Positions 12,279 to 42,933 of a stretch of DNA of 64,000 bases are shown piece by piece. The notes beneath the pieces were generated by a model. It was not told the origin of the DNA and made no database searches. It saw only the letters and a program-made list of their open reading frames with translations. A program made the position numbers and the translations under genes. The DNA is from Bradyrhizobium arachidis (GTDB lineage: Bacteria; Pseudomonadota; Alphaproteobacteria; Rhizobiales; Xanthobacteraceae), in the NCBI RefSeq assembly GCF_015291705.1, contig NZ_CP030050.1:496001-560000 (forward strand). The letters are read 5' to 3'. Position 1 is the stretch's first letter, and each line of letters starts with the position of its first letter.

Positions 12279-14006
12279 TCACCCCCGCGCCATCGCCCGC
12301 TTCGCCACCGCCAGCCCCATCAACACGAACGCCGATGTCACCTCCGGCCCGCCGACCAAAATCCGCGTCGGCGTCTTCATCTTGTTCCACTCATAGGCGC
12401 GGAACGGGCCGCGTCGGCCGCCTTCGCCAAGGCTTGCGATGATCACGTTCAGCGCCGGCGCGAAGGCGCGCGGATCGGCGCCGAGATGGCCGAGCGCGAT
12501 CAGCGCCAGCGCGGCGTCGAACGCGTTCATCTCGGCGGTCATCAGCTCGCCCTTGACGTAGGACAGCACGCGGTGGCGGATGAAATCGAAATCGCCGTCG
12601 GGATCGATCGCCGCCTGCGCCGCCAGCGGCAGGGCCAGGAACGCCGCATAGCAGCGGCCGAAATAGGCGCTGTAGAGCTCCGGCAGATAATAGATGTGCG
12701 AGCGCGGATTGGCGAAGGCGCCGCTCGCGGCAAGCCGCTTCTGGAAGCCGATGATCCGGTGCACGGTGGCGAGCCGCGCCGGCGTCTCCAAAATCTTCCA
12801 GCGCGCGAGGTTGCGAAAGCTCACCTCGAGAATGTCGAGATTGAGCGTCGGATCGAGATCGTTGCCGTAGGGGCGCTCGCCCCTGAGATTGTCGATCCAG
12901 GTCGCAACGCCGCCCTCATAGTCGATATTGTCGTTGAGCGGCACGGTCACGCGTGGCTCGTTTACGCCCGCGCGCACTTGATAGCCGGCATAGAAATCCA
13001 GCAGCGGCTGGTCGATGATCGCATCAAGGCAGCCGGCCTGCGTCGCGGCGGAGATCGAGCACGCCGTGGTGTCGCAATCCGGCACATAGACGCCGAAGCC
13101 GAGGTCCTGCTTGATCTGCGCGAAGTAGCGCGAGAAGCGCGGATGCGGCGGAGGGGCCAGCGCGGTGATGACGTTGAACCGCGCGCCGTCGATGCCCTCG
13201 ACCTCTTCGCGGCTGATGTTGACGCAGAAATCCACCATGTCGGCGATCGCGCGCTCGGCTGCGGTCTTGTCCGCGGGCGTGGCGAGCCCGGTCTCGACAT
13301 AGCTCAGCAGCGCCTCGATGAAGAACGCATCGTAGTAGGCCGAGCGGTGACGGATCTGCACCGGCTCCCACATCGGCTCGGCGATGCCTTTCCAGGGCGG
13401 ATTGACCACGGCGCGCGCGTGCGTGCGCGCGATGAAGACGCGGGCGAGATTGAACAGCAGCGACGAGTTCTTGTAGCCGCGCGCATTCAGGCCCGTCAGC
13501 GCCATGGTCAGCTCACGGCCGCGGAAATCGGGATCGCCGATCAGGTTGAAGGCGGCATAGGTCGGCAGGAAACCGTTCTTGCGATACGAGCCGAGCAGAT
13601 GTTGCGCGCAGTCGCGGATCACGCCGTCGATCTGCGCTGGCTGCGGCATCGTACCAGTGAATGCCGCCGGCGGCGGTTTGGGATGATCGAGCGCGATGCT
13701 GTCGACGAGATCGGCGACGGGCTGGCCGACCGCGGCCCAGTCCGGCTCGGCATCGTCGCGGGCGCGGGTGAGCGCCTCGCGCAGCCGGGTCAGCTTCGCC
13801 TCTTCGCGCAGCTCGGGCAGTCCGGCGCGGCGGAGCAGCAGGCGCAATGCGGGATTGCCGAGCGCGGTCTTGTAGAATTTGGCCAGATGCGGATCGCCAC
13901 TGGTCGTCGCCGCCAACACGGGATCGCAGACGTCATAAAGAGAGGGGCCGTCCTTGCGCGCTGTCAGCGCCCGGCAGGCGGCACCGGCGAAATAATGAAA
14001 GCTCAT
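12279..14006 (-). CDS. Conserved-looking protein of unknown function, 575 residues
   Basis: I do not recognise this protein. It is soluble-looking (no clear signal peptide; the N-terminus FHYFAGAACRALTARKDG is not strongly hydrophobic), rich in alpha-helical, aromatic and Arg residues, and has Cys-containing stretches such as CVNISREE and CDTTACS. The alternating helical pattern in the second half (LDILEVSFRNLARWKIL, HRIIGFQKRLAASG, YLPELYSAYFGRCYAAF) would fit an alpha/alpha-toroid or a helical-repeat fold, which is a guess. ATG 14006 was chosen because the upstream open frame is short and lacks coding character. It is convergent with nothing and divergent from the pseudo-caspase gene across 426 bp. 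Confidence 0.7.
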   Translation of the reverse strand: MSFHYFAGAACRALTARKDGPSLYDVCDPVLAATTSGDPHLAKFYKTALGNPALRLLLRRAGLPELREEAKLTRLREALTRARDDAEPDWAAVGQPVADLVDSIALDHPKPPPAAFTGTMPQPAQIDGVIRDCAQHLLGSYRKNGFLPTYAAFNLIGDPDFRGRELTMALTGLNARGYKNSSLLFNLARVFIARTHARAVVNPPWKGIAEPMWEPVQIRHRSAYYDAFFIEALLSYVETGLATPADKTAAERAIADMVDFCVNISREEVEGIDGARFNVITALAPPPHPRFSRYFAQIKQDLGFGVYVPDCDTTACSISAATQAGCLDAIIDQPLLDFYAGYQVRAGVNEPRVTVPLNDNIDYEGGVATWIDNLRGERPYGNDLDPTLNLDILEVSFRNLARWKILETPARLATVHRIIGFQKRLAASGAFANPRSHIYYLPELYSAYFGRCYAAFLALPLAAQAAIDPDGDFDFIRHRVLSYVKGELMTAEMNAFDAALALIALGHLGADPRAFAPALNVIIASLGEGGRRGPFRAYEWNKMKTPTRILVGGPEVTSAFVLMGLAVAKRAMARG

Positions 14007-14432
14007 GAAATACCTGGTCGCGGGGGCCTTGGTCAGGAGCGGCCGGCACGCTCCCATCCGCGCGCCACCCCCGTGCCAAGTCTTTGAAAAAGCTACCCGG
14101 ATTCGCGGGAAATACAAACGTGATGATGGTCACAGAAAAACTCGGCACGGAGGCTGCATGATGAGACTCCGGAAGGCTACGGGGACGCAAAAAATCCGCA
14201 TATTGGGCCGGGAGAATTAGTTAACATATTCAGTGTCTTAGCTCAAATTTAGGGCAATCTATTGCCCCGCGGGCGATATCCGGTTAAGGGTTTGTTTGGT
14301 GCGGCGCCGCAAATTGTGCGCAATTCGGGGGCACATCCCCGGCCACTCCCTCAAACCTAAAGCCGCTATCGCGCTACTCAAACTGTGTGCGCGCGCTTGG
14401 CTGGTCTTTGGCACTGACAGGAATGAAGCGAG
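14007..14432. other. 426-bp divergent intergenic region
   Basis: No credible gene. It holds the upstream regions of the 575-residue protein and of the pseudo-caspase gene. An AT-richer patch at about 14215-14265 (ttagttaacatattcagtg and neighbours) stands out against the GC-rich surroundings and is the best place for a promoter. No clear hairpin or repeat family is seen. Confidence 0.5.
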
Positions 14433-15281
14433 ATGAATTTAAGGCAGCTCGACATTTCCCGACGCACGATCGCAGTCGCCGCAGCCCTCATCGGCACGGT
14501 ATCGCTGGTGATCGGCGCCCATGCTGCCCTCAACATGCGCGCGCTCGATGCCGCCAAGGCCGTTTCGACCGACCAGGTCACCGGCTCGATCGGCCAGACC
14601 TCGCGCCTCGCCCTCGTCATCGGCAATGGACATTACCCCGACGCCAGCGCGCCGCTGACGCAGTCGATCAACGACGCCCGCGCGCTGTCCTCGAGCCTGC
14701 GCAAGAGCGGCTTTGACGTCGACATGGTGGAAGACGCGACCAAGGACGACATGGTCCGCGCCGTCAACCGCCTGAAGTCGCGGATCAAGCGCGACACCGT
14801 CGTCATGCTGTTCTTCGGCGGCTTCGGCGTGCAGGCCGGCCGCGAGAGCTACATGCTGCCGGTCGACGCCGTGATCTGGAAGGAAAGCGACGTCCGCCGC
14901 CAGGGCGTGTCCATCGAGGGCGTGCTCGACATGATGAAGCAGCAGGGCGCCAAGGCCAAGCTCGTCGTCGTCGACGCCTCCCGCCGCAACCCCTATGAGC
15001 GCCGCTTCCGCTCCTACAGCCATGGTCTTGCGCCGATCAGCGCGCCCGACAATGCGCTGATCCTGTCCTCGGCTTCGCCCGGCAAGGTCGTCGACGACGG
15101 CAAGGGCGAGCACAGCGTGCTGGTCGGCGAGTTCCTCAACAACCTCAATGCGCAGGGCAGCGCCGAAAGCGTCTTCAACAAGACCCGCGTCGCCATCTCC
15201 CGCGCCTCCGAAGGCGACCAGGTCCCGACCGTGTCGTCCTCGCTGCTCGAGGACGTGCAGTTCAACGAAGCCGGCGGCTAG
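14433..15281 (+). CDS. Caspase-fold (peptidase C14-like) protein lacking both catalytic residues
   Basis: A 282-residue protein with an N-terminal membrane anchor or signal (about residues 12-33) and one caspase-like domain (residues about 57-280). The fold markers are RLALVIGNGHYPD, QSINDARALSSSLRKSGFDV and ESYMLPVDAVIW. The two catalytic sites are substituted: the usual SGHG with His is GGFG (VVMLFFGGFGVQ), and the usual DACRxNP with Cys is DASRRNP. It therefore cannot be a Cys peptidase and is probably a binding or scaffold protein in the envelope. A paralogue with the same substitutions is at 40203-41744. Confidence 0.88.
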   Translation: MNLRQLDISRRTIAVAAALIGTVSLVIGAHAALNMRALDAAKAVSTDQVTGSIGQTSRLALVIGNGHYPDASAPLTQSINDARALSSSLRKSGFDVDMVEDATKDDMVRAVNRLKSRIKRDTVVMLFFGGFGVQAGRESYMLPVDAVIWKESDVRRQGVSIEGVLDMMKQQGAKAKLVVVDASRRNPYERRFRSYSHGLAPISAPDNALILSSASPGKVVDDGKGEHSVLVGEFLNNLNAQGSAESVFNKTRVAISRASEGDQVPTVSSSLLEDVQFNEAGG

Positions 15282-15411: not shown

Positions 15412-16299
15412 CTACTTCGCCGCTTCCGCGGCCATCACCGGCCGCACCGGGTCGCCTTCGCGCAGCAGCGCGCCGGCGCGGGCGACGACGATGTCGCCTT
15501 CGTTGAGGCCGTCGCGCACCTCGATATTGCCGCCCGACATCAAGCCGATCTCGACGCGCTTGGTCTCGACGCGGTTGCGGCGGATCACCTGCACCACAGT
15601 GCCGGCGGACGAATATTGCACGGCGGTGAGCGGCACCGCGACGTTGCAGCTCTGCCCGGTCTTGATCAGCGCGCGCCCGCTCGCGTTGAGCAGCAGCCGC
15701 TTCTGCGAGGAGATGCCGATATAGACCATGCCCTGCTGGATGTTCGGCTCGACGGTCGGCCCGATGCGGCGCACCTTGCCGTCGAGATCGCCGGCGCCGG
15801 CAATGCGCACCGTCGCCTGCTGGCCAACCGCGAGCTTGCGGATATCGGTGGTCGCGACCAGACCAACCAGATCGTATTCGCTGCGCGCCACGATCGTGAA
15901 CAGCGCCTCGCCCTTGGCCGAGGCCAAATTGCCGATCTGCGCCGTCGAGGTCGCGATCACGCCCGCCACGGGCGCGGCGACCTGAAGCGTGCCGCCTTCG
16001 GGCAGCGCGAGGCGCGCCAGCACCTGGCCGGCCGTAATGGTGTCGCCGGCTTCCGCCAGCACCTCCGTCACCTTCAGGCCGGGACGCTCGGGCCGCACCG
16101 AGGTTTCCTCGCGCGCGATGATGGTGCCGGTGGCCTCGACGATGTCGGAGAAGCAGGATTTTGCCGCCTTCAGCACCGTGACCGCCGGCCCCTTCGGCGC
16201 CTCGTCTTCGGCGGCGCGCGCGGCAGGAGCGGACAGCAGCAGCAGTCCGGTGAGCGCAACGAGATGTCTGGAAAAGAAACGCGCAGGCAATGGACGCAT
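15412..16299 (-). CDS. HlyD/RND-type periplasmic adaptor without an adjacent pump
   Basis: A 295-residue membrane-fusion-type adaptor with a signal peptide (LVALTGLLLLSAPAARAA). A split lipoyl domain (VTEVLAEAGDTITAGQVLARL and VAAPVAGVI) and a beta-barrel region (VGQQATVRIAGAGDLDGKVRRIGPTV) are visible. A Cys near the mature N-terminus (KSCFSDIVEATGTI) matches the one in the adaptor at 38294-39223 (NACFSDLVRVTGFF), so the two belong to one subfamily. Unlike that one, no RND or ABC transporter gene sits next to it. It may serve a pump encoded elsewhere. Confidence 0.85.
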   Translation of the reverse strand: MRPLPARFFSRHLVALTGLLLLSAPAARAAEDEAPKGPAVTVLKAAKSCFSDIVEATGTIIAREETSVRPERPGLKVTEVLAEAGDTITAGQVLARLALPEGGTLQVAAPVAGVIATSTAQIGNLASAKGEALFTIVARSEYDLVGLVATTDIRKLAVGQQATVRIAGAGDLDGKVRRIGPTVEPNIQQGMVYIGISSQKRLLLNASGRALIKTGQSCNVAVPLTAVQYSSAGTVVQVIRRNRVETKRVEIGLMSGGNIEVRDGLNEGDIVVARAGALLREGDPVRPVMAAEAAK

Positions 16300-29442: not shown

Positions 29443-31890
29443 CTACCCGCGCCGCCGCGCGACCGACGCATCGACCACGTTCTCGACCCCCTCGCGCCAG
29501 CTCAAAATCTCCATCGCAAGCACGGGATGATTAAAACCCTTGAGCTGGAGATCGTCGAGCGCGCGCGCCTCGACCCAGGGCTCGACCATGCCGTAGACGC
29601 GGCGGCTGACCACGATCTGGTTCGGCTTGGCCTCGCTGCAGAGACGGGAGGCGAGATTGGTGACGCTGCCGATCGCGGCATATTCGAGCCGCTGCTCGAA
29701 GCCGACCTGGCCGAGCGTGGCATAGCCGAGCGCGACGCCGATGCCGAACCCGAGGCTATGGCCGCGGTTGCGCCAGCGCTCGGTCAGCGGGCCGATGGTG
29801 TCGCGCATCTCCACCGCCATCTTCACGGCGCGCTTGGTGTGGTCCTCGAACTGGATCGGCGCGTTGAACAGGATCATCACGCCGTCGCCGGCATATTTGT
29901 CGAGCGTGCCCTCATACTTGAAGATGAGCTGGCCGAGCGCGGCGTGGTATTCGCGCAGCACGTTCATCGCCTCTTCCGGCTCGGTGGCTTCCGTGAACGC
30001 GGTGAAGCCGCGCAGATCGCAGAACACCACCGTCACCTCGCGGCGCTGGCTGGTGAGCAGCCCCTCGGGGCTGTCGGAGGAGGCGATCAGCTGCGCCACC
30101 TGCGGCGCCAGGAAACGCTCGAGCTTGCGGATGCGCTCGATCTCGCCGAGCTGGGTCTCGACGCGCTCCTCCAGCGACTTGTTCCAGTCCTTGAGCTGCT
30201 CGGTCTGCACGCGCAGCTTGTCGGCCTGGGCGCGCACGGTCTCGTTCGCGGTCTCGAGCGCGTGGCTCTTGTGATCGACCTCGGTGAACAGCCGCGCATT
30301 GCGCATTGCCAGCACGGCCTGGTTGGCGAAGGTGCGCATCAGGCCGATGATGCTGGCGGCGAACGCGCCACTGGCGCGGCGCAGTACCACCAGCGAGCCA
30401 AGCGTGCCCTGCTGATCGACCAGCGGCACCACCAGCACCGAGTGGAAGCCGGCATCGATCGCGGCATCGCGCAGCGGCTGCTCGGCCGCGTGGTCGAGAT
30501 CGGCAATCGCGATCGGCTCGCCGCTCTCCGCGGCATCGCTCAGGATGTTCTCGCCTTCGCCGATGGTGACGTGTGCGCCTTCGGCCGACTTGTCGATGCC
30601 GCCCGCCTCCACCAGGTTGAAGCTGTGTGCCTCTGCGTCATAGCCGTAGATCAGCACCGCGTCGGCGTGGGTGATCTCGATCGCGCGCGCGGCAATGGTC
30701 GGCAGCACGGCGTTGAGATCGAGCGAGGAGGCCACCGCGCGGCCGACCTCTTCCAGCACCTTGAGCTCGTGGTTCGACTGCGCGAGGTCACGGGTGCGCT
30801 CCTCGACCTTGGTCTCCAGGTTCGAATAGGTCTCCTGGAGCTGGGTCGCCATGCGATTGAACTGGCCGGCGAGGTCTTCGAGCTCGTCGGAGGTGTGCAC
30901 GTCGATGCGGTGGCTGAAATCGCCCTCGCCGAGCTTGTGCGCGCCGTCGCGCAGCGCGGTGATCGGGATGATCATGCGGCGGGCGAGCAGCGTCCCGGCG
31001 AGGATCGCCACCATCAGGCCCATGCCGATCAAAAGCGCGATGCGCACCAGCTGGTCGCGGATCGGCGTCAAGGCTTGCGTGGTCGGCTGCTCGAACAGCA
31101 CGCTCCAGCCAAGTTTCGGAACGGTGCTCGCAGCGCTCATCACCGAATGGCCGTTGAAGTCGGTACCCGATGTTTCGGATTCGCGCCCCGGCGCGATCGC
31201 AGCCGCCACCTGTGGCAGCTTCGACAGGTCCTTGCCGACGTCGGGCCCCTTCGACGACGTCGCCAGCACGCGGCCGCGCGGATCGACCACATAGGCGAAG
31301 GCGGCCTTGCCGACCTGCGCGTCGGACAGGAAGTCGGAGAGGAAGCTGAGATCGATCTCGGCGACTGTGACGCCGGCGTTGAAGCCGGAATGCGCGACCG
31401 AGATCGACATGATCGGCCGCTGGTCGACGAAATAGGCCGGCGAATAGCTGACGCCGCGGGCCACCGTGTCGGTGAAGCGCATGTCGCGGGAGAGGTCGGC
31501 ATTGCCGCCGGTCGTGGTCGACTGGCGCGAGACGCGCAGCACCTCGCGGCCCTCGCCGTTGAGCTGGAACAGCTGGTTGACGACCGAGACCTGGTGCAGC
31601 AGTTGGGCGTAGTCGGCGCGGCGCTTCTCGAGCGTGTCCTGGCTCGCCCGCGTCACCCAGCTGATCTGGCGCTCGAGCTCGGAGATCGACTGTTCCATGC
31701 GCCGGGCGACGGCCTGCGCCCTGTCCTCGAGCCCGTCGGTCAGCGATGTCTTGGTGGCGCGGTAGGAGATCCAGGTCTCCATCGCGCCGTTGACGGCGAG
31801 CACGAACACGACGAGGCCGACGAGGGAGACGACATATTTGGCGAACAGGCCCTCGCGCAGAAACCGTGTCTTGTCGTTCGCCCCTGCCAT
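29443..31890 (-). CDS. Membrane adenylate/guanylate cyclase with dCache, HAMP and GAF domains
   Basis: An 815-residue class III nucleotide cyclase. TM1 about 17-35, periplasmic sensor about 40-280, TM2 about 282-304, HAMP about 305-357, GAF domain about 380-535, coiled coil about 540-590 and cyclase catalytic domain about 615-790. Metal-binding Asp residues are intact: D625 (FCDLRGFT) and D669 (AGDGVMILF). It should make cAMP (or cGMP) in response to a periplasmic and a cytosolic signal. Start ATG 31890 follows AGAGGA. A Crp-family regulator lies at 34445, about 2.5 kb away, which could use the product. Confidence 0.93.
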   Translation of the reverse strand: MAGANDKTRFLREGLFAKYVVSLVGLVVFVLAVNGAMETWISYRATKTSLTDGLEDRAQAVARRMEQSISELERQISWVTRASQDTLEKRRADYAQLLHQVSVVNQLFQLNGEGREVLRVSRQSTTTGGNADLSRDMRFTDTVARGVSYSPAYFVDQRPIMSISVAHSGFNAGVTVAEIDLSFLSDFLSDAQVGKAAFAYVVDPRGRVLATSSKGPDVGKDLSKLPQVAAAIAPGRESETSGTDFNGHSVMSAASTVPKLGWSVLFEQPTTQALTPIRDQLVRIALLIGMGLMVAILAGTLLARRMIIPITALRDGAHKLGEGDFSHRIDVHTSDELEDLAGQFNRMATQLQETYSNLETKVEERTRDLAQSNHELKVLEEVGRAVASSLDLNAVLPTIAARAIEITHADAVLIYGYDAEAHSFNLVEAGGIDKSAEGAHVTIGEGENILSDAAESGEPIAIADLDHAAEQPLRDAAIDAGFHSVLVVPLVDQQGTLGSLVVLRRASGAFAASIIGLMRTFANQAVLAMRNARLFTEVDHKSHALETANETVRAQADKLRVQTEQLKDWNKSLEERVETQLGEIERIRKLERFLAPQVAQLIASSDSPEGLLTSQRREVTVVFCDLRGFTAFTEATEPEEAMNVLREYHAALGQLIFKYEGTLDKYAGDGVMILFNAPIQFEDHTKRAVKMAVEMRDTIGPLTERWRNRGHSLGFGIGVALGYATLGQVGFEQRLEYAAIGSVTNLASRLCSEAKPNQIVVSRRVYGMVEPWVEARALDDLQLKGFNHPVLAMEILSWREGVENVVDASVARRRG

Positions 31891-32148: not shown

Positions 32149-34209
32149 TCACCGATTGAAGAGCTGCCGCAGCACATCGTTCATGGGCTGGCTGTCCTGC
32201 TGCGCCGCCGGCGGGTCTTCCAGGGCCGGGGGTGCGGGCGAAGCCTGCGGTGCCGGCGGGGAGGGTACTGCCGGCAGGCTGCGGCTGCGGCCGGTGCCCG
32301 TCGCCGTACCTGTTCCGGCACCGCTGGAAAGCCCCTGCTGGATCAGGCTGCCTATCGCCTCGCCCAAGGGGCCGCCGAGCAGATTGTTCTGGCCCGGCTG
32401 CTGGGTTTGCGGATTGGCATTGCCGGGCACGTTGCCGCCACCCGGCGCGGTCGCGCCGCCGAGGCCGAGGCTGCCCAAAATATTGCCGAGCCCGGCGCCG
32501 TCGGGGCCGAACAGGCCTTTGCCCATCTCGCGCAGCTTGGCATAGGCAGCCTCGGGATTATCGAGCATGCCGGCCATGTCAGGATAGATCTTCGGCTGCG
32601 ACCAGCTGCCCTGGATCATCACGGGGATGCCGAAGCCGACCGGCTCATTGGTGCGGCCCTGGCCTTCGGTCGTCATCACCAGCTTCGGCTCGACGCGAAA
32701 ACCCATCATCTTGGTGTCGAGTGCGATCGTGCCGGCGCCAGTCACCCGTACCAGCGGCCCGATCAGGTTGAGATCGGTCGTCACCGCCTGACCCTTGTCG
32801 ATGCGGAAGGAGGCCGAGAGCTGCGACAGGTCCGTGCTCTGCTCCTGGCTGCTGTTCTGGCTGTCTTGCCAGCCGGACAGCGTGCCCGATGTCAGCGAGC
32901 GGATCATCTGCGCGACGTTGATGCCGCGAATGGCGCCGTCCTGGAAATTGACGAAGGCCGTGCCCTGCATGTTTGCCATCAGCGCGCGCTGGCTGGTGCC
33001 GGCACTGCGCAGCGCGAGTTTGGCCTGCAGCTTGCCGTCGATGCGGTCGAATTCGGCAAGGCCCTGCAGCAGCGGCAGCGCGCGCACGCCGACGAGGTCG
33101 GAATGCATGGCAAAGCTCGGCGCGCCGGTGGTCGCATCCAGGATCACCTCGCCCGAGACCTGGCCGCCATAGGCGCCGAGATTGGCGGTGCCGGCCTTCA
33201 GCACGCCGCCGGCGAGCTTTGCATCGAGGGCCAGCGGTGCGAGGCGGGCATCGCCGATCATGGCCTCGTTCGCGGAGAACCTGATTTGCGCATCGACATA
33301 GTTCAGTCCGGAGACGTCGATCGGCGCATCGCTCCAGGGTCGCCCGGACGCGCCGTCAGGGGATTTCGCCAAGGGAATCGCCAGCCGCTGGAAGTCGAGA
33401 TCGAGCTTGACCAGCGGCTTGCTCGCGATGTCGACGGACGCCCAGCCGTTGAACGCGCCGTCGCCGAGCGTGCCGTTGATGCCGTTGATCATCACGATGT
33501 CGCCGTTCAGCCGCATCTCGGCGTGGCCGGCGAGCTGGGACTTCAGCACATCGGGCATGTCGATGGCGAAATCCACGGGGATCGTGGGCCGGTCGGTCGG
33601 CGGCGCCGGCGTCGCTGCCTTGATGTCGAACCTGGTCGGATGCTCGCCGACGCGCGCGGTGCCGGTGATGTTGACCTTGCGGTCGCGGTCGACGACGGCA
33701 TCGGCGTTGATGGCGCTGATACGACCTTCGACGCGATCGCGCAGCCGCGAGAATGCGACCTCGCCGTCGGTGATCTTGACGCGGTCGATGGTGGCGCCGT
33801 CCGTGTCGAGCGCGAGCGGCTTCGACGAAGTGCCGGCATTCGGCAGGCGCTCACGCAGCAGCGGCTGATAGAGCACGGGACGGGTGACGACGAGCTCGCT
33901 GATCTTCGGACGGCCCGACCATACGCTGGCGAGCGACATGTCGGCCTGCACGCTGTCGACCGTCAGGCGCGTGATGCCGCTACGATCCTTGGGATCCTGG
34001 AGCGTGAGATCGTTCAGCGTGACGTTCAGCGTCGGCCAAACGCTGATCTTGGTGGTGCCGTCGATCGACAGGCGATAGCCGGTCGCGCTCTCGACCCGCG
34101 AGGCAATCGTCGAGGTCAGGAAGCCGGAGGGGACCCCGACCACCAGCAGGAGTGCGATCACGATGATGACGGCGGCCACCGCCGCGCCGGCGAATTTCAC
34201 TGCTCTCAT
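32149..34209 (-). CDS. AsmA family protein
   Basis: A 686-residue envelope protein with an N-terminal membrane anchor (FAGAAVAAVIIVIALLLVVG) and the AsmA-like start GFLTSTIASRVESATGYRLSIDGTTKISVWPTLNV. The large periplasmic part is beta-rich (bridge-like lipid transport family) and the C-terminal quarter is a Gly/Pro/Gln-rich tail (about residues 570-686). AsmA proteins are linked to phospholipid transport and outer-membrane homeostasis. ATG 34209 was chosen because it starts the anchor and has a GGAAAG box; in-frame upstream ATGs have no ribosome site. Single gene divergent from the Crp-family regulator. Confidence 0.88.
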   Translation of the reverse strand: MRAVKFAGAAVAAVIIVIALLLVVGVPSGFLTSTIASRVESATGYRLSIDGTTKISVWPTLNVTLNDLTLQDPKDRSGITRLTVDSVQADMSLASVWSGRPKISELVVTRPVLYQPLLRERLPNAGTSSKPLALDTDGATIDRVKITDGEVAFSRLRDRVEGRISAINADAVVDRDRKVNITGTARVGEHPTRFDIKAATPAPPTDRPTIPVDFAIDMPDVLKSQLAGHAEMRLNGDIVMINGINGTLGDGAFNGWASVDIASKPLVKLDLDFQRLAIPLAKSPDGASGRPWSDAPIDVSGLNYVDAQIRFSANEAMIGDARLAPLALDAKLAGGVLKAGTANLGAYGGQVSGEVILDATTGAPSFAMHSDLVGVRALPLLQGLAEFDRIDGKLQAKLALRSAGTSQRALMANMQGTAFVNFQDGAIRGINVAQMIRSLTSGTLSGWQDSQNSSQEQSTDLSQLSASFRIDKGQAVTTDLNLIGPLVRVTGAGTIALDTKMMGFRVEPKLVMTTEGQGRTNEPVGFGIPVMIQGSWSQPKIYPDMAGMLDNPEAAYAKLREMGKGLFGPDGAGLGNILGSLGLGGATAPGGGNVPGNANPQTQQPGQNNLLGGPLGEAIGSLIQQGLSSGAGTGTATGTGRSRSLPAVPSPPAPQASPAPPALEDPPAAQQDSQPMNDVLRQLFNR

Positions 34210-34444
34210 GTCGACTTTCCAGCGGCGGACCATCGGCGTCGAAACCGGCAAATACCGGTACTTTGCGCCGCGTCCTTTCCGCCTGAGTTTATCCCGGGAC
34301 GGGAAGTGGTTCCAAGCGGTCAAAAATAGTCAGGGGGAGCTGCAAAGTTATGTGACTTATGACACACTTCCCCGGCGCGGTTTTACGCGATCCTGATGTT
34401 GATGGTTCCAAGCGATTTGCCAAGAAATTCACAAGGACATTGAA

Positions 34445-35119
34445 ATGAGCAAGCAGGCCGAATTTGCGGTCATCCTGAAGATGAACGCGATGTTCGCCGA
34501 CCTCGGCGCAGATGAGCTCCAGCGGCTGTCCAATCTCTGCCACACCCAGCATCTGGGCAATGGCGAGGTGCTGTTCCAGAAGGGCGACCCCGGCGACGCG
34601 CTGTTCGGCGTGCGCCGCGGCCAGGTCCGTATCGAGACCGGCGCCTCCGATGGCAGCCGACTGACGCTGAATTTCATGGGACCGGGCGATTTGTTCGGCG
34701 AGGTCGCGGTGCTGGACGGCCAGAGCCGCACGGCGGACGCGACCGCGGGCGAGGCCAGCGAATTGTTCGTGCTGCGGCGCGAGGATTTCCTCGGCTTCCT
34801 CGAGCGCGAGCCGAAAGTCGCGATCAAGATCATCGCGCTCTTATGCCAACGCATCCGCTGGCAGAGCGAGCGCATGGAGGAATCCATGTTGCAGCCGCTG
34901 CCGGTGCGGCTGGCACGGCGGCTCTGTGCCCTCGCTGCCGATTTCGGCTCCGAGGTGCACATCTCGCAGGAGCAGCTCGGCATCTTCGTCGGCGCTGCCC
35001 GCGAGAGCGTCAACCGCCAGCTCCAGGCCTGGCGCAAGGAAGCGATCCTCGATCTTCAGCGCGGCCGGATATTGCTGCGGAACATGGCCAAGCTGACGGC
35101 GATCGCACGGAACGAGTGA
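34445..35119 (+). CDS. Crp/Fnr family transcriptional regulator
   Basis: A 224-residue regulator: N-terminal cyclic-nucleotide-binding fold (about 15-125) with FGEVAVLDGQSRTADATA, the phosphate-binding cassette; central helix; C-terminal winged helix (about 150-220) with recognition segment ISQEQLGIFVGAARESVNRQLQAW. No Fnr-type cysteine cluster is seen at the N-terminus, so cAMP-like binding rather than O2 sensing is favoured. A possible partner is the nucleotide cyclase at 29443-31890. Divergent from asmA-like gene and convergent with the RND operon. Its targets are unknown. Confidence 0.9.
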   Translation: MSKQAEFAVILKMNAMFADLGADELQRLSNLCHTQHLGNGEVLFQKGDPGDALFGVRRGQVRIETGASDGSRLTLNFMGPGDLFGEVAVLDGQSRTADATAGEASELFVLRREDFLGFLEREPKVAIKIIALLCQRIRWQSERMEESMLQPLPVRLARRLCALAADFGSEVHISQEQLGIFVGAARESVNRQLQAWRKEAILDLQRGRILLRNMAKLTAIARNE

Positions 35120-35150: not shown

Positions 35151-38100
35151 CTACTCCGCCGCCGGGTGCACGATGTTCTTCGGCGCCGGCGCCGCATTCG
35201 CGGCCTCGTGATGGCCGTCCGTCTCGGCATCCTCGCTGTGCACGATCAGCCGCTTGCCGAAGCGCCAGATCAGCGCGCCGAGATCGTCCATCACCATGAA
35301 CATCGCGGGCACGAACACCAGCGACAGGATGGTCGAGAAGATCAGGCCGCCGATCACCGCGAGTGCCATCGGCGAGCGGAACTCGCCGCCGGCGCCGACC
35401 GCGAGCGCGCTCGGCATCATGCCGGCGGCCATCGCGATCGTGGTCATCACGATCGGACGGGCGCGCTTCATGCCGGCGTCGATCATCGCCTCATCGCGCG
35501 GCTTGCCGCCGTTGATCGCCTCGATCGCGAACTCCACCAGCATGATGGCGTTCTTGGTGACGATGCCCATCAGCATCAGGATGCCGATCCAGACCGGCGT
35601 CGTCAGCTGCTTGCCGGTGACGAGCAGGGCCGCGATCGCGCCGCCGATCGACAGCGGCAGCGAGAACAGGATGGTGATCGGTTGCAGGAAAGTGCCGAAC
35701 AGCAGCACCAGCACTGCATAGACCATCATCAGGCCGGCCGTGATCGCGGTGGCAAAGCCGTCGGATAACTCGTTGAGGCTTTCGGCATCGCCGGACGGTG
35801 AGACCTTCACGCCCTTCGGCAGGCTCTTCATCACCGGCAGTTCGTAGATCTTCTTGGTGGCATCGCCGAGTGCTGCGGAGCCGACGAGGTCGGCGGCCAC
35901 GGTGGCCTGCCGCTCACGATCGTAGCGGTTGATGCTGGTCGGGCCCTGGTCGAGCTTGACGTCGGCGATGACCGAGAGCGGCACGCCGCCCTTCTCGCCG
36001 TGCTCGCCGAGCGGCACGCGCAACTGCTCCAGCGTCTTGAGATTGCCGCGCGCGGCGTCCTCGAGCTGGACGCGGATCGGCACCAGGCGGTCGCCGACGT
36101 CGAACTTGGCGAGCGCGGGGCCGACGTCGCCGATGGTGGCCACGCGGATGGTCTGCGACAGGCTTTCGGTCGAGACGCCGAGGCGCGCGGCAAGGTCCGC
36201 ACGCGGCTCGATGCGGAGCTCAGGGCGCTCCAGCGCGGTTTCCGAGATCACGTTGGAGATGGTCGGAATCCGCTTCATCTGCGTCGCAAGCTCGCTGGCG
36301 ACGTTGTTGACGATGTTGGCGTCGACGCCGGTCACCACCAGCGAGATCGCGCGCAGGCCATTCTCGTCCAGGAACCAGAAGCGGATATCGGGAACGTTCT
36401 CCAACTCCTGGCTGATCGAGAATTCGAGCTCGCGCTGGGTGATGTCGCGGTCGCTCTTGGGCGTGTAGTTGATGATCAGGGCGGCGCGCCGGACTTCCTG
36501 GGTCCCGGGCGGAACGCGGCCGCCGTCGACGAAGATGCTCTTCACCTCGGGTCGCTTGCGCAGGCGCGCGACGATGTCCTCGGTGACCTTTTCGGTGTAG
36601 GCGAGCTGGGTGCCTGGCGGCAGCTCGAGGGCAAGCAGCGAGCGCGCGCTGTCCTGCGCCGGCAGGAAGCCCTGCGGCAGCAGCGTGATGCTCCAGATCG
36701 AGGCGGCGAAGATGCCGAAGCCGATCAGCACGGTGATGAAATAGTGCTTCACCGACCACGACACGATGCTGTGGTAGGTCCGCAGGATGCGGCCGGGCGG
36801 CGGCTCCTCGTGTGCGTGATGCTTGAGGAAGTAGGCTGCCAGCATCGGCGTCACGAAGCGTGCCGCGAGCAGCGAGAAGAACACCTGCACCGAGACGGTG
36901 ATGCCGAACTGCTTGAAGAACTGTCCCGCGATGCCCGACATGAAGCTCGCGGGCGCGAAGATCGCGATGATGGTGAGCGAAATCGCGATCACGGCGAGGC
37001 CGATCTCGTCGGCGGCTTCCAGCGCGGCGCGGTAGGGCGATTTGCCCATGTTCATATGCCGCACGATGTTCTCGATCTCGACGATGGCGTCGTCGACCAG
37101 GATACCTGTCGACAGCGTGATGGCGAGGAAGCTGACGAGGTTCAGCGAGAAGCCGAGGATGTCCATCGCCCAGAACGCCGGGAAGATCGACAGCGGCAGC
37201 GAGATCGCGGCAATGATGGTCGCGCGCAAATCGCGCAGAAACAACAGCACGATGACAACCGCGAGGATGGCGCCTTCGAACAGGGTCGAGATCGCCGCCT
37301 CGTAGTTGCCCTTGGTGTATTCGACCGAGGTGTCGATCAGCTTGAGATCGACGTCGGGATAGGCGGCCTTGAGCGCGTCGATGCGCTTCTGCACGGCGGC
37401 GGCGACCACCACGTCGCTGGCGCCCTTGGAGCGCTTGATGCCCAGCGCGACCACCGGCTCGCCGTTGAAGCGGGCGAAGGTGCGGCGGTCGGCGATGGTG
37501 TCGGTGACGGTGCCGAGATCGTCGAGACGGACCTCGCCGCCGCCGAACAGCGGGATCATGGTGCCGGCGAGATCGCTCAGCGTCTTGGCGCCGGCCAGCG
37601 TGCGGATCGCCTGGTCGTTCTTGCCGATCTCGGCGCGGCCGCCGGCGACGTCGACATTGGTGCCGCGCAGGCTCTGGCTGACATTGACGGCGGTGAGCCC
37701 CATGGCCTGGAGACGGTCGGGATCGAGTGAAACCAGGATCTCGCGCTCGACACCGCCGATGCGCTCGACCTGGGCGACGCCGCGCACGCCTTGCAGCGCG
37801 CGCTTGACCACGTCGTCGACGAAATAAGAGAGCTGCTCGGGCGTCTTGCCGGGTGCGATCGCGGCATAGGTGACGATCGGCAGGCCGATCACGTCGACGC
37901 GCTGGATCAGCGGCTCGGTGACGTTCTGGGGCAGGTTCGACCGCACACGCGTCACCGCGTCCTTGACGTCGTTGAGCGCGCGGTCGGTGTTGGTCTCCAG
38001 TGCGAACTGGATCGTGGTCACCGACAGGCCGTCGGTGATCGACGAGGTGATGTGCCGCACGCCCTCGACGCCGGAGACGGCGTCTTCAACCGTCTTGGTG

Positions 38101-38294
38101 ACCTGGGATTCGAGCTCGGCGGGCGCCGCGCCGAACTGCGAGACCGCGACCGAGATCACGGGAATGTCGGCCGAAGGCAACCGCGTCACCGCGAGCTTGG
38201 TGAAGGAGACCCAGCCGAGAATCAGGAGGATGATCGAAAACACCACCGACGGCAGCGGATTGCGGATCGACCATGCCGAGATATTGAGAGCCAT
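35151..38294 (-). CDS. RND efflux transporter permease (AcrB/MexF-like)
   Basis: A 1047-residue inner-membrane RND pump with 12 predicted helices and two large periplasmic loops. The proton-relay region reads STGILVDDAIVEIENIVRHMN (two Asp) and GIVTKNAIMLVEFAIEAING (Lys), both conserved. The N-terminal SIRNPLPSVVFSIILLILGW is typical. Start ATG 38294 overlaps the adaptor stop by one base (TGATG), so the two are translationally coupled. No outer-membrane channel gene is near. Substrate not determinable. Confidence 0.95.
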   Translation of the reverse strand: MALNISAWSIRNPLPSVVFSIILLILGWVSFTKLAVTRLPSADIPVISVAVSQFGAAPAELESQVTKTVEDAVSGVEGVRHITSSITDGLSVTTIQFALETNTDRALNDVKDAVTRVRSNLPQNVTEPLIQRVDVIGLPIVTYAAIAPGKTPEQLSYFVDDVVKRALQGVRGVAQVERIGGVEREILVSLDPDRLQAMGLTAVNVSQSLRGTNVDVAGGRAEIGKNDQAIRTLAGAKTLSDLAGTMIPLFGGGEVRLDDLGTVTDTIADRRTFARFNGEPVVALGIKRSKGASDVVVAAAVQKRIDALKAAYPDVDLKLIDTSVEYTKGNYEAAISTLFEGAILAVVIVLLFLRDLRATIIAAISLPLSIFPAFWAMDILGFSLNLVSFLAITLSTGILVDDAIVEIENIVRHMNMGKSPYRAALEAADEIGLAVIAISLTIIAIFAPASFMSGIAGQFFKQFGITVSVQVFFSLLAARFVTPMLAAYFLKHHAHEEPPPGRILRTYHSIVSWSVKHYFITVLIGFGIFAASIWSITLLPQGFLPAQDSARSLLALELPPGTQLAYTEKVTEDIVARLRKRPEVKSIFVDGGRVPPGTQEVRRAALIINYTPKSDRDITQRELEFSISQELENVPDIRFWFLDENGLRAISLVVTGVDANIVNNVASELATQMKRIPTISNVISETALERPELRIEPRADLAARLGVSTESLSQTIRVATIGDVGPALAKFDVGDRLVPIRVQLEDAARGNLKTLEQLRVPLGEHGEKGGVPLSVIADVKLDQGPTSINRYDRERQATVAADLVGSAALGDATKKIYELPVMKSLPKGVKVSPSGDAESLNELSDGFATAITAGLMMVYAVLVLLFGTFLQPITILFSLPLSIGGAIAALLVTGKQLTTPVWIGILMLMGIVTKNAIMLVEFAIEAINGGKPRDEAMIDAGMKRARPIVMTTIAMAAGMMPSALAVGAGGEFRSPMALAVIGGLIFSTILSLVFVPAMFMVMDDLGALIWRFGKRLIVHSEDAETDGHHEAANAAPAPKNIVHPAAE

Positions 38295-39223
38295 CAGCGT
38301 ACCCGCGTGCGATCGAGTTCATCGGCGAACATGGTCTTGATCTGGTCGCCGTCATGCAGCGAAGAGCCGGCGTCGGCCACGACGATCTCGCCGACCTCGA
38401 GACCTTCCAGGATTTCCGTCGCGGTGTCGGACGTCAGCCCGACCCGCACCTTGCGCGTCTCGACGATGTTGCCTTTGACGACCTGCACGGTGAGATGGTC
38501 GATCGCGGTCTTGGGAACCGCGACGCCGCAGCTTCGCTTGGCATCGATGGAGGCGCGGGCGAATACGCCGACCTTCAGCGAGGGATTGTTGGTGACGCTG
38601 ATGCGGACGCGGCCGAGCTGGGTGGCGCGGTCGATCTCGGGCGCAACCAGGCGGACCCGGCCGATCAGGTCGGGCGCGTCGTCGCGGCTGATGCGCACCG
38701 TCGCGCCGGGGCTGAGCTTGGGCATGTGCACGGCCGGGACCTGCGCATCCAGCTCGATCTCGTTGTTGACTGCGATGCGGAACATCGGGCCGGCCTGCGG
38801 GGAAGCGGGCGCGCCGACGATGGTGCGGACCTCGGTGACGAGGCCCGGCGCGGGCGCCTTGAGCGAGATCGGGCCTTGCGGACCGGGCCGCTGCGGCTGA
38901 CCCGGAATCTGCGGCGGCGGGGTCAGGCGCGCCAGCTCCTGGTTTTCGGTGACCATGGTGCCTTCGGTGACGAAGACGTCGGTGACCCTGGAGCCTTCCT
39001 GGTCGGCGACGACGACGGCCTCGCGGCGCGGCACGAAGAAGCCGGTCACGCGCACGAGGTCGGAGAAGCAGGCATTGGTCGACTTCGTCACGATGACGAG
39101 CGCCTCGCCCGGCGTTTCCTTCGCCTCGGGACGATGCCGATGCTCGAACAGATAATAGCCGACGCCGAGTACGACGACGAACAACACGGTTCCGGCGGGT
39201 TTGAGATATTCGGAGACGTTCAT
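38294..39223 (-). CDS. RND efflux periplasmic adaptor subunit
   Basis: A 309-residue membrane fusion protein with an N-terminal membrane helix (PAGTVLFVVVLGVGYYLF), a lipoyl/beta-barrel region (TPPPQIPGQPQ linker, then SLKAPAPGLVTEVRTIVGAP, PKLSPGATVRISRDDAPD) and the conserved Cys motif NACFSDLVRVTG. It connects the RND pump encoded by the following gene to an outer-membrane channel. ATG 39223 was preferred over a TTG 84 bp upstream because it starts directly before the membrane helix. Confidence 0.9.
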   Translation of the reverse strand: MNVSEYLKPAGTVLFVVVLGVGYYLFEHRHRPEAKETPGEALVIVTKSTNACFSDLVRVTGFFVPRREAVVVADQEGSRVTDVFVTEGTMVTENQELARLTPPPQIPGQPQRPGPQGPISLKAPAPGLVTEVRTIVGAPASPQAGPMFRIAVNNEIELDAQVPAVHMPKLSPGATVRISRDDAPDLIGRVRLVAPEIDRATQLGRVRISVTNNPSLKVGVFARASIDAKRSCGVAVPKTAIDHLTVQVVKGNIVETRKVRVGLTSDTATEILEGLEVGEIVVADAGSSLHDGDQIKTMFADELDRTRVR

Positions 39224-39381
39224 CGCCGGATTGTCCTGGCCTGGCTCACGGCCATCCGCACGAGGCCTATCAAGAGCGTTTCCCTGAAATAAAGCGGCGC
39301 CCCGCAAGGCTGCGGGACGCGCTCCGGAAGCAAGACTTTACACCACATCACGACGGGTCATTGCAAAGGATTGCGTCGCGC

Positions 39382-40056
39382 TCACTTCGATGCGGTGGTC
39401 TTGTTTTCCATATTGACGACCTGCACGCGGCGGTTGACCTCCGCCATCGGCTGGCTCGGATCCTTCAGCTTGCTCTTGCCGTAGCCGACCGTGACGAGGT
39501 CGGTCGCGGAGATGCTGTATTTTTCGACCAGATAGCGCTTGATCGAGTCCGCGCGGCGCTCCGAGAGGTCCTGGTTGTAGGCCTCGCTGCCGGCAGCGTC
39601 GGTGTGGCCGGCGACCACGAAGGTCGAGCCCTTCAGGTCGGCGCTGGTCAGCGCGCGGCCGAGCGCCTGCACCGAGGGCAGCGACTTGGCGCTGATATTG
39701 GCGGAGTTGTAGTCGAACGTGATCTCGAGATCGATGTTCGGCTTGTCCTTGGCGACTGACGCGATTTCCTCGCGCTCGGTCGACGACAGCGAGCGGGTCG
39801 AGCGGCCGCGCACGGACTGGATCAGCTTGGTCTCCGCCGCGTTCGGCGCGGGATCTGCCTGCGGAGCGCCAATCGAGAGGCCGCGGGTCAGCGGCTTCTT
39901 CGGCGGAGGGGCCAGCGCGCGGACGATCTCGTCTTCGGTGACGTTCTTGCTGTTGCCGTCTTCGCCGGCGACGGCGGGTGCGGCCTGCAGCGACAGCGCG
40001 GCGCCGATCGCCATGACCGACAGGATCGCGGTAAGTCCTTTTGCAGCAAATCTCAT
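39382..40056 (-). CDS. OmpA family protein
   Basis: A 224-residue secreted/outer-membrane protein: signal peptide about 1-29 (LTAILSVMAIGAALSLQAAPAVA), a Pro/Ala-rich linker, and a C-terminal OmpA domain (about 115-222) with VVAGHTDAAGSEAYNQDLSERRADSIKRYL, which binds peptidoglycan meso-diaminopimelate. Start ATG 40056 has GGAGGG eight nt upstream. It is followed (upstream on the same strand) by the TPR pseudo-caspase gene, which could share a transcript (146 bp gap). Confidence 0.93.
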   Translation of the reverse strand: MRFAAKGLTAILSVMAIGAALSLQAAPAVAGEDGNSKNVTEDEIVRALAPPPKKPLTRGLSIGAPQADPAPNAAETKLIQSVRGRSTRSLSSTEREEIASVAKDKPNIDLEITFDYNSANISAKSLPSVQALGRALTSADLKGSTFVVAGHTDAAGSEAYNQDLSERRADSIKRYLVEKYSISATDLVTVGYGKSKLKDPSQPMAEVNRRVQVVNMENKTTASK

Positions 40057-40202
40057 TGCCAGTCCCTCCTGCGCAGCCGACCTGCGCGGTTCCCAAAATT
40101 CCTTGCAATAAGCCCCCGGAAAGGCCGCTTGCGGCATCCGTTCTTTAGTCTTGCTTGGGCCGCCGAGGTTCGAGGCGTGTGCTGCCTCAACTCAAAAAAA
40201 TA

Positions 40203-41744
40203 CTAGCGTACTCCGTAGCTTGCGAATTCCTGAACGATGTTCGGATCCATCGCCTTGGCATTGGCGATGTCGAGCGCGCCTTCCTGGGCCGAGCCGTTGC
40301 GCTGCTTGGCGAGCCCCCGCCCGTAGAGCGAGGAGGTCAGGCGCGGGTTGATCCGCAAGGCCGCGTCGAAATCGGCGATGGCGTTCTTCACCGCGCCCGA
40401 TTTGAGGTTGACGAGCCCCCGGCTGTCCAGCGCATCGACGAAATTCGGCCGCAGCCGCAGCGCCTCGTTGCAATCCTTCAGAGCGCCCTGGAGGTCGCCG
40501 ACCACGGTGCGGGTCCAGCAGCGGTTGTTCAGTGCCTCGACGTCCTTCGAGTTGATCCGCAGCGTGTCGTCGAAATCCTTGATGGCGAGGTTGTAGGCAC
40601 CCTTGCTGGCATAGACCTGGCCGCGCCGGTACAGCGCGTTCACGTCATCAGGATTGGCGGCGATCTTGGCGGTCAGGCCCTTGATGGTGGGATCCTCAGC
40701 CAAAGCGGCCGCGCTCGGCCCGCTATCCACGCTCGGGGCGGGGGTTGTCTCGGCCGGCTTCGCCGGTGGTGGCGGCGGGGGTAGGGCGGCCTCGACCTGC
40801 GGCTTCGGCGAGGGCGCCGGTGCGGGCGTAGGGGGAGGCGCAGGAGCAGGCGCGGGCGCTGCAACCGTGTCGGCCGGCTTCGGCGGCGGAGGTGGTGAGG
40901 GCGGCGCCGGTGGTGCCGGCGGCGGGTTGTTGGCGACGACGGGCGGAGCGGGAGGCGCGGGCGGTGGCGTCGTTGTCGGGCGCGATCCGCCGGCTCCCGG
41001 AATGAACGAAAAATCTTCGGCCAGGGAAGAGGATATCCACGGCACCTGCTCGCCGCGCGAGGCGCGGGTGACACCCATCTTGGTGCGGTTCAGCGTCTCC
41101 TCCGCCATCAGGTCGGGGACGCGGATCTCCTTGAGCAGTTCCTGCACGAACAGGCTGTGCTCGCCGCCGGCGTCCGACACCACCGAAGCCAGCGCCGCCG
41201 AATACATCACCAGCGTGCCGTTCGGCGCGATCACCGGGGTGAGGCCCGCCGAGAAACTGCGGAACCGGCGCTCGAACGGATTGCGCCTGGACGCATCGAC
41301 CAGCGCGATCTTGACGCCGGCACCGCGGGTGTTGAGCTCGCCGAGCACGGTCTCGAGGCTGAAACCGTCGCGGCGCACGTCGGATTCGGTCCAGATCTGC
41401 GCATCGACCGGCAGCATGTAGCTTTGGCGCGCCGACTGGATGCCGAAGCCGCTGAAGAACACCAGCGCCACCGATCCGGGCTTGATCTTGCCATAGAGCT
41501 TCTCGAAGGCGCGGCGCATGCCGTCGCCGGTCAGGTTCTCGCCGATCTCCACGGAAAAGCCATCGCGCTTGAGCTCGTCGGCAACGTCGCGCGCGTCGTT
41601 GATCGGTTCCTTCAGCGGGGCATCCGCATCCGGATATTTGGCGTTGCCGATGATCAGCGCATAGCGGTCGCCGGCGGCCAGGGACGGCGCAGCCGGGACA
41701 AGCGAAATGAGGAGGGACAGAAGAACGAGAAAGCGAATTTTCAT
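40203..41744 (-). CDS. Caspase-fold pseudoenzyme with C-terminal TPR repeats
   Basis: A 513-residue secreted protein: signal peptide (FLVLLSLLISLVPAAPSLA), caspase-like domain about 25-250, a Pro-rich linker about 255-345 (repeats of PPAPP) and about four TPRs from about 355 to 510 (for example ALYRRGQVYASKGAYNLAIKDFDDTLRINSKD). Catalytic positions are substituted as in its paralogue at 14433: SGFG for SGHG (LVFFSGFGIQ) and DASRRNP for DACRxNP. So it is not a protease; the fold plus TPRs suggest a scaffold in the periplasm. Start ATG 41744 begins the signal peptide. Confidence 0.9.
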   Translation of the reverse strand: MKIRFLVLLSLLISLVPAAPSLAAGDRYALIIGNAKYPDADAPLKEPINDARDVADELKRDGFSVEIGENLTGDGMRRAFEKLYGKIKPGSVALVFFSGFGIQSARQSYMLPVDAQIWTESDVRRDGFSLETVLGELNTRGAGVKIALVDASRRNPFERRFRSFSAGLTPVIAPNGTLVMYSAALASVVSDAGGEHSLFVQELLKEIRVPDLMAEETLNRTKMGVTRASRGEQVPWISSSLAEDFSFIPGAGGSRPTTTPPPAPPAPPVVANNPPPAPPAPPSPPPPPKPADTVAAPAPAPAPPPTPAPAPSPKPQVEAALPPPPPPAKPAETTPAPSVDSGPSAAALAEDPTIKGLTAKIAANPDDVNALYRRGQVYASKGAYNLAIKDFDDTLRINSKDVEALNNRCWTRTVVGDLQGALKDCNEALRLRPNFVDALDSRGLVNLKSGAVKNAIADFDAALRINPRLTSSLYGRGLAKQRNGSAQEGALDIANAKAMDPNIVQEFASYGVR

Positions 41745-42126
41745 AATCAGCGCGGTCCAGCCAAAAAGGCGCCGTTCCCAGCTTGCGCCGCGGCGACCTT
41801 AACTTACGCTCCAGGCATTATCAAACCCGGGAAGGGGGGCGTCAACCGCTTGGAGATTCGGGATAATCGCGACGATTGATCGCAACGCATGGGCGCGCCG
41901 GGAGGAGAATGAACAGGCTGTCATGATTGCGGCTCGAGCGATCCGGTTCGATCTTTACGGCAGCAAGTTAGGGCAGCCGGGGCGAAGAGAATGTGATTGG
42001 TCTCACTTCGCGGACTCACATGGCAGGCTCGCGGTCATCGCAGCCTCCGGCGTTTGACCTTTCTTGCGGACAATGGCTTGGTGCGCCCGATCGTCCCGCA
42101 AGATCCAACTCAAGAAAAGCAAGACC
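41745..42126. other. 382-bp divergent intergenic region
   Basis: Holds the 5' regions of the TPR pseudo-caspase and the metallo-hydrolase at 42127. No credible ORF with a start and ribosome site, no repeat family from elsewhere in the window, and no clear hairpin was seen. Confidence 0.5.
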
Positions 42127-42933
42127 ATGGGAAACGCCTACGAAATCTACGCGCTGCGCTATGCGACGATGTCGCCGCGCACCCCCAACATGAACTTCCT
42201 GGCCCCGGACCCGCATGACAGCGCGGCGCAGGACCTCGACTATTTCGTCTGGCTGATCCGAGGGAAGGGCCGCGACATCCTGGTCGATACCGGCTTCAAT
42301 GCCGAGGAGGCGAGCGCGCGGGCGCGCAAGCTGACGCTGAATCCGGTCGATGCGCTGGAGCGCTTCGGTGTCGCTGCGTCAGCCATTGCCGACATCATCG
42401 TGACGCATCTGCATTACGACCATGCCGGCAATCTCGACCGTTTCTCGAACGCGCGCTTCCATCTTCAGGAGCGCGAGATGGCTTACGCAACCGGCCGCTG
42501 CATGTGCAACGGCCTGCTGCGACATCCATTCACGGTCGAGCACGTCACGCAGATGGTGCGCCATGTCTATGGTGAGCGCGTCACGTTTTATTCCGGCGAC
42601 GGCGAGGTCGCACCCGGCGTCACCGTGCATCGTGTCGGGGGCCATTCGGACGGCTTACAGGTGGTCAAGGTCGAGACCGCGCGCGGGCCGGTGGTGCTCG
42701 CGTCCGACGCCGCGCACTACTACGCCAATCTCCAGCGCAGGAGCCCGTTCCCGATCGTCTACAATGTCGGCGACATGGCGGCGGGCTGGGAAACGATCGA
42801 GCGTCTCGCCGGGCATCCTGATCGATTCATTCCCGGTCATGATCCGATCGTGACGGAAATCTATCCGCGCGCCAGTGACAAGGTCGATGCCTGGGCGCTG
42901 CATCTGCCGCCGACAAGGTCGTTTGCGAAATGA
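42127..42933 (+). CDS. Metallo-beta-lactamase fold hydrolase, N-acyl homoserine lactonase-like
   Basis: A 268-residue MBL-fold hydrolase. The complete zinc motif HxHxDH is present (VTHLHYDHAGN), with the third His (GGHSDGLQVVKV) and the bridging Asp (VVLASDAAHYY) in order, and a final His in FIPGHDP. Closest family by pattern is AHL lactonase (AttM/AiiB type), which opens the lactone of quorum signals; other lactonase functions remain possible. ATG 42127 was chosen because homologous proteins start near GNAYEIYALRYATMS. It is not obviously in an operon. Confidence 0.85.
   Translation: MGNAYEIYALRYATMSPRTPNMNFLAPDPHDSAAQDLDYFVWLIRGKGRDILVDTGFNAEEASARARKLTLNPVDALERFGVAASAIADIIVTHLHYDHAGNLDRFSNARFHLQEREMAYATGRCMCNGLLRHPFTVEHVTQMVRHVYGERVTFYSGDGEVAPGVTVHRVGGHSDGLQVVKVETARGPVVLASDAAHYYANLQRRSPFPIVYNVGDMAAGWETIERLAGHPDRFIPGHDPIVTEIYPRASDKVDAWALHLPPTRSFAK

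Follow-up and report, generated by a model that had tools for sequence, protein, structure and literature searches.

The window, by which we mean the whole stretch of 64,000 nucleotides analysed, encodes two caspase-fold proteins. The short one (282 aa; 14433..15281, plus strand) has a single N-terminal hydrophobic segment (residues 13-31); the long one (513 aa; 40203..41744, minus strand) is composed of a signal-peptide-like N-terminus, a caspase domain (residues 27-245), a proline-rich linker and TPRs from about residue 349. Both match PF00656 in a Pfam profile search (E 3.6e-37 for the short and 4.3e-36 for the long protein), and the fold motifs named in the original prediction are read in them: LALVIGN or YALIIGN, NDAR, SYMLPVDA, GGFG or SGFG, and DASRRNP. 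Pfam matches to TPRs are confined to the long protein, where they lie C-terminal to p20 (TPR_1, E 2.2e-17) and are the only domains found besides PF00656, which itself extends beyond p20; the short protein shows no TPR match and no Pfam domain other than PF00656. Over 232 aligned positions the two domains are 50% identical (E 8e-80), and their likeness is thus one of homology, not of chance. PF00656 is matched 21 times in the source genome, a single contig of 9.87 Mb, and alignment of all 21 proteins places Phe at the position of the catalytic His (F131 in the short protein, F100 in the long) and Ser at that of the catalytic Cys (S183, S152) in the window pair, with His-Cys in 18 others and Tyr-Ala in one. 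The His-Cys dyad of an active orthocaspase (C14 peptidase) is accordingly Phe-Ser in both window proteins, as had been predicted, and both are pseudo-orthocaspases, with a p20 caspase domain (PF00656) and a replaced dyad. Among solved structures the domains match the MALT1 paracaspase and metacaspases over p20, with MALT1 best (E 2.3e-17); these are active enzymes with other partner domains, whereas the window proteins have lost the dyad. A single AF2 model of the fold was poor (pLDDT 55.7, pTM 0.58, both active-site loops below 50) and was given no evidential weight.

The long gene is followed on the same strand by, in this order, the genes for an OmpA-like protein of the peptidoglycan-binding type (39382..40137, minus strand; PF00691), directly downstream, a first RND periplasmic adaptor (38294..39307, minus strand; HlyD-type matches, start codon ATG probably at 39223) and an RND permease of 1047 aa (35151..38294, minus strand; PF00873, 761 bits), whose GILVDDAI motif we take to be the proton-relay motif. 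At the other end of the region, the short gene is convergent with the gene for a second RND-type periplasmic adaptor (15412..16299, minus strand; 35% identical to the first) and divergent from that for a 612-aa protein to which no family is assigned (12279..14117, minus strand; no Pfam or NCBIfam match). A Crp-type cyclic-nucleotide-binding regulator (34445..35119, plus strand), an AsmA-family protein (32149..34323, minus strand) and a dCache-HAMP-GAF nucleotide cyclase (29443..31890, minus strand) are clustered with these genes in part of the relatives, and a metallo-beta-lactamase-fold protein (42064..42933, plus strand) marks the outer edge beside the long gene in many of them. By Pfam and NCBIfam, the window holds both the RND permease and the periplasmic adaptor that a tripartite RND efflux system requires; no TolC-type outer-membrane channel was found among the 17 window proteins scanned. 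The likeness to such systems lies in the permease (PF00873) and the HlyD-type adaptors, the difference in the presence of two adaptors together with caspase-fold and OmpA-like genes and in a permease that scores under the cut-off of every NCBIfam model matched (best 686 vs 1250). As separate observations, a pair of Cys motifs that could form a disulfide, CFSD-V close to the N-terminus and SC-VAVP further on, is common to both adaptors; the occurrence of cyclase and Crp-type regulator in one cluster in part of the relatives suggests cyclic-nucleotide control of the pump locus; and a 916-aa protein encoded between the two ends of the cluster (25473-28223) carries an autotransporter-type and an RTX-type calcium repeat.

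Phylogenetic analysis places both proteins within one non-catalytic clade. In a rapidly computed tree with 119 caspase domains and without the two dyad columns (119 of 239 caspase stretches kept at below 93% identity, duplicates from the source genome itself and stretches shorter than 190 residues having been removed beforehand), one branch sets off 91 non-catalytic rows (SH-aLRT 98), among which 37 group around the long protein and 35 around the short one (SH-aLRT 97 each); the tree carries a warning of long branches meeting. A second tree, to which 28 relatives from elsewhere in the class, outside this order, were added (28 loci outside the source genome, among the matches listed, all with His-Cys; 94 of 147 stretches kept at below 82% identity), returns 46 pseudo-caspase rows as one clade nested among His-Cys rows, with SH-aLRT, the one support measure used, at 100. 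Two losses of the Cys are required on this tree, one for the clade and one for the Tyr-Ala gene of the source genome. The Cys was thus lost before the short and long forms split, within one non-catalytic clade nested among His-Cys orthocaspases. The original prediction rested its argument on two diverged paralogues that share both losses; given that the window pair falls inside one such clade, the loss of the Cys counts once, and a parallel double loss is rejected on both trees. The Tyr-Ala gene just mentioned (G000:C1:5697940-5698602, L026), the third caspase gene of the source genome with an altered dyad, lies outside the clade and represents an independent dyad loss on the tree.

The two dyad positions have evolved in different ways. 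Across the 91 clade rows, the His position is occupied by Tyr (45), Phe (39), His (5) and two others (V, I), the Cys position by Ser (74) or Ala (17) and never by Cys; the minimum number of changes on the first tree is at least 19 for the His column and 8 for the Cys column. Five clade rows read His-Ala, with the His kept and the Cys gone. Ser is shared by all of the 80 closest short orthologues (the best 80 of 422 relatives, all short forms), which are Tyr-Ser in 65 cases and Phe-Ser in 15. The Phe common to the window proteins is therefore partly an accident, because the His position toggles between Tyr and Phe among short orthologues and changes at least 19 times on the tree. Free variation at these residues, named beforehand as evidence against an established lineage, is found at the one position and not at the other. 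Dyad letters make a poor class label, since Phe and Tyr interchange often and it is the loss of the Cys that marks the clade. The other contrary outcome named in advance, a His and a Cys supplied from elsewhere in the domain, did not appear in the sequence alignment: 88 of the 91 clade domains are free of any Cys, and no column has His in more than 32 of the 91 rows.

That the lineage is established and kept by selection, as originally proposed, is supported by purifying selection on both forms. Median dN/dS (Nei-Gojobori) is 0.188 for the short form (81 orthologues; 3225 of 3240 pairs used, with dS above 0.1) and 0.088 for the long form (11 orthologues, all 55 pairs), and at least two clade members occur in each of the 11 same-genus genomes sampled, the source genome included. 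Two pocket aspartates, namely those named for TbMC2 (PMC6426788) and mapped here via a MALT1 alignment, are Asp in 91/91 and 89/91 clade rows. Trp149, Glu189 and Arg193 are invariant in all 91, and Arg185 is present in 89, the same column being Asp (21) or Asn (6) in the 27 His-Cys rows; Arg185 and Trp149 together distinguish the clade from these 27 rows. The motif NPFERR was dropped as a signature of the pseudo-caspase clade, some His-Cys relatives carrying it too. At the N-terminus of the short form, [ST]RR occurs in 84 of 104 distinct sequences, with SPR or SHR there in some, in a set that includes a few members of other subgroups and over-long starts; on this motif, the short form is a candidate for twin-arginine export. 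Certain Bradyrhizobium genomes contain extra clade members (L169-L172, L174, L175) of 456-463 aa (Phe-Ser) or 287 aa (Tyr-Ser). One record titled Frankia sp. RB7 (L058) contains a 94% identical short form flanked by genes of Bradyrhizobium type and is probably a contaminating contig.

Proteins of this kind have been described before. Asplund-Samuelsson et al. 2012 noted many substituted dyads in Alphaproteobacteria (PMC3501461, in the portion available to us), and the accessible part of Klemencic et al. 2019 (PMC6426788) defines the pseudo-orthocaspase by a p20 domain in which one or both of His-Cys are replaced and by absence of a p10, counts 582 of them in Alphaproteobacteria, 561 in Rhizobiales, and gives Tyr-Ser, Tyr-Ala and Phe-Ser as the commonest dyads, the Phe-Ser forms consistently having TPRs. 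The protein part of our finding, that is, Phe-Ser pseudo-orthocaspases with TPRs in Rhizobiales, is thus already in print. By its dyad and its TPR matches, the long protein belongs to the Phe-Ser subtype with C-terminal TPRs; the short protein does not, its Phe-Ser domain having no TPR match, and it is an exception to the "consistently" of the available text. Also different from that account is the interchange of Phe and Tyr within orthologues seen here. More distant counterparts are SyOC of Synechocystis and the cyanobacterial pseudo-orthocaspases (PMC7889975, PMC6426788; both consulted in part), which share the non-catalytic p20 and, in Tyr-Ser forms, an N-terminal export-like extension; SyOC itself is from another phylum, has a Tyr-Gly dyad and is proposed to act in oxidative stress. 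What we did not find in print is the pump-cluster setting: the accessible text of PMC6426788 yielded no mention of pump or OmpA neighbours, the word "caspase" was not found in the available part of an RND review that names the BdeAB pump of B. japonicum (PMC8277102), and no report of a linkage between pseudo-orthocaspases and RND pumps was found in the open literature searched (titles and abstract starts, among the matches listed, mostly without subscription papers).

The original prediction treated the two genes as separate, whereas comparison across relatives reveals that the short and long genes bracket one conserved gene cluster. For the long form, 39 loci were scored, each with 5.5 kb or more of downstream sequence; in 32 of them an adaptor and an RND permease follow on the same strand, 25 of the 32 also having the OmpA-like gene; the remaining seven have the OmpA-like gene only (3) or none of the genes (4). 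The 39 comprise 20 loci picked for their neighbours (pump present in 20/20), the window, and 18 others, of which 11 have adaptor and RND; all seven pump-less loci fall among those 18. Around the short form (95 loci), the second adaptor and the 612-aa protein adjoin in 87, the 612-aa protein alone in three and neither in five, so that this uncharacterised protein, a neighbour in 90/95, constitutes a strongly linked family; in the named Bradyrhizobium-type loci, of which 71 of 80 could be scored, both neighbours are present in 71/71. These counts omit loci without room and repeated proteins and set the boundary between long and short at 400 residues of open frame, the lengths of some relatives (e.g., L177) being overestimates, since they are counted from the earliest start that the open frame allows. 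In 20 regions from genomes of the family, chosen for closeness of both genes or (L151, L156) of one, the cluster is more compact than in the window (about 8 to 16 kb) and runs from the 612-aa protein through short form and second adaptor, in some regions also through cyclase, AsmA and Crp, and on through RND permease, first adaptor and OmpA-like protein to the long form, often with the metallo-beta-lactamase-fold protein beyond. A second family also has the caspase-OmpA-adaptor-RND order, in two of its genomes (L176, L177). The pump does not stand beside the extra Bradyrhizobium copies (L174, L175) or the His-Ala members (L186, L190, L204-L206); the RND orthologue lies apart from the pseudo-caspase gene in G009, G079 and G100, and elsewhere in the genome where Tyr-Ala clade members are among the pump-less loci.

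Caspase genes outside the clade offer the comparison. Within the source genome, 18 stretches, each 18-19 kb long, cover the remaining 19 caspase genes, and the OmpA-adaptor-RND order is found downstream of none of these genes. Four stretches contain some RND-family gene (52 to 244 bits vs about 1900 for orthologues), accompanied once by an adaptor (43 bits); in one stretch the caspase gene has an OmpA gene (235 bits) beside it (L238, L243, L247 and L250 being the four RND-family/OmpA stretches listed). At the 12 nearest His-Cys loci in other orders, no gene for an adaptor, an RND protein or an OmpA protein is seen; the downstream sequence spans at least 5 kb in nine and less than 2 kb in three.

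Genome content agrees with the linkage. The clade is present in 69 of 198 genomes of the family, separated by a wide score gap (best E at most 3e-80 vs at least 1e-50), and an orthologue of the RND pump (at least 1340 bits) in 66; all 66 of the latter have the clade, and 66 of the 69 clade genomes have the pump, by bit-score cuts that were set after seeing the gaps and in counts that ignore shared ancestry. The three clade genomes without pump orthologue are two drafts of hundreds of contigs (G081, G173) and one of a single contig (G095). In 31 genomes that have only an RND protein of 1012-1242 bits (55-58% identity), clade members number zero, and in the same search 12 loci of this RND type showed the adaptor and no caspase, OmpA-like or cyclase gene. 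When 297 genomes sampled from the order are considered, the only ones beyond the family to reach clade-like scores are two from a single other family. From the co-occurrence, and with no pump genes seen at the nearest His-Cys loci, the pump link may date from about the same time as the loss of catalysis.

The conserved linkage to pump genes points to a part in the pump or the cell envelope rather than to an enzyme. We put at about even the chances that both proteins, members of an old and catalytically dead orthocaspase clade, serve an RND transport or envelope system in a non-enzymatic capacity, by binding or as a scaffold. The long form, its gene possibly co-transcribed with the pump genes, would be exported to the periplasm, as the signal-like N-terminus suggests, where its dead caspase domain might bind a peptide or protein partner, perhaps via the retained pocket for basic residues; the TPRs and the neighbouring OmpA-like protein would keep it near the peptidoglycan and the adaptor-RND pump, in putative contact with the pump, for which a cargo is presumed. 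The short paralogue, probably membrane-anchored, would serve the same RND machine. A more specific scenario, plausible yet held with somewhat less than even confidence, is that the caspase fold became a dedicated structural or peptide-binding RND subunit, that a single loss of catalysis apparently coincided roughly with the entry of the gene into the OmpA-adaptor-RND cluster, and that duplication of the domain then supplied one pump with two copies. Evidence against an RND part comes from the 7/39 long-form loci without pump and from the unlinked RND orthologues and clade copies. For bacterial pseudo-orthocaspases, no settled function emerges from the literature consulted, the published proposal, in the part of the source available, being photosynthesis; the conserved cluster suggests another role that can be tested directly, in which an inactive caspase domain belongs to an RND envelope system. 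If true, it would illustrate clearly how a protease fold can be retained solely to bind.

The OmpA-like gene invites a different interpretation, in which dead caspase, OmpA-like and AsmA-family proteins organise the periplasm as an envelope scaffold or stress sensor without role in transport, the pump being merely co-regulated. The gene follows the long form, in the same orientation, in 28/39 loci, three of which have no pump downstream, and the AsmA and cyclase genes are clustered in part of the relatives. The co-occurrence of clade and pump in both directions (66/66 and 66/69) argues, however, for the pump as a core part, and we regard a scaffold apart from transport as unlikely, if worth serious attention.

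In animals, pseudo-caspases act as decoys or regulators of caspases (cited in PMC6426788). By analogy, the window proteins could bind substrates of active orthocaspases, or these enzymes themselves, and the 18 His-Cys genes of the source genome, the His-Cys gene found no more than 4 kb away at 10 of 28 long-form loci and the retained pocket aspartates would suit such a role. The 64-kb window has no His-Cys gene, however, nor is there one within 4 kb in 18 of the 28 loci, and the constant neighbours are pump genes, leaving the analogy with a small probability. As regards anti-phage defence, PADLOC models gave weak single-gene domain matches (30.2 and 20.7 bits of the caspase domains to PDLC02987; 26.0 and 20.3 bits of the OmpA-like protein to ZorB models).

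Klemencic et al. 2019 stated pseudo-variants for photosynthetic Alphaproteobacteria only and proposed a role in photosynthesis (PMC6426788, in the accessible part). Judged by PF00124 (photosynthetic reaction-centre), which is matched in 25 of the 198 family genomes, the restriction does not hold for this clade at genome level: 51 of the 69 clade genomes have no PF00124 match, including the source genome and all 11 same-genus genomes, and the clade is absent from seven of the 25 phototrophs. Its presence in the other 18 leaves a positive association (Fisher p 7e-5, shared ancestry ignored), though the counts disagree with photosynthesis as a general role, which we consider highly improbable. 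Fainter still is the prospect of a hydrolase in which Ser acts as the nucleophile with another residue as its new partner. Ser is found in 74/91 clade members, but Ala replaces it in 17, Tyr or Phe fills the His position in 84 and the His columns reach 32 rows at most; a Ser-His pair using the His of GEHS was ruled out, that His varying among members. As an observation on gene order apart from these readings, His-Cys orthocaspase genes are often situated directly upstream of the long pseudo-caspase form (L145, L148, L155, L182, L200, L201, L212), some with an OmpA-like gene of their own.
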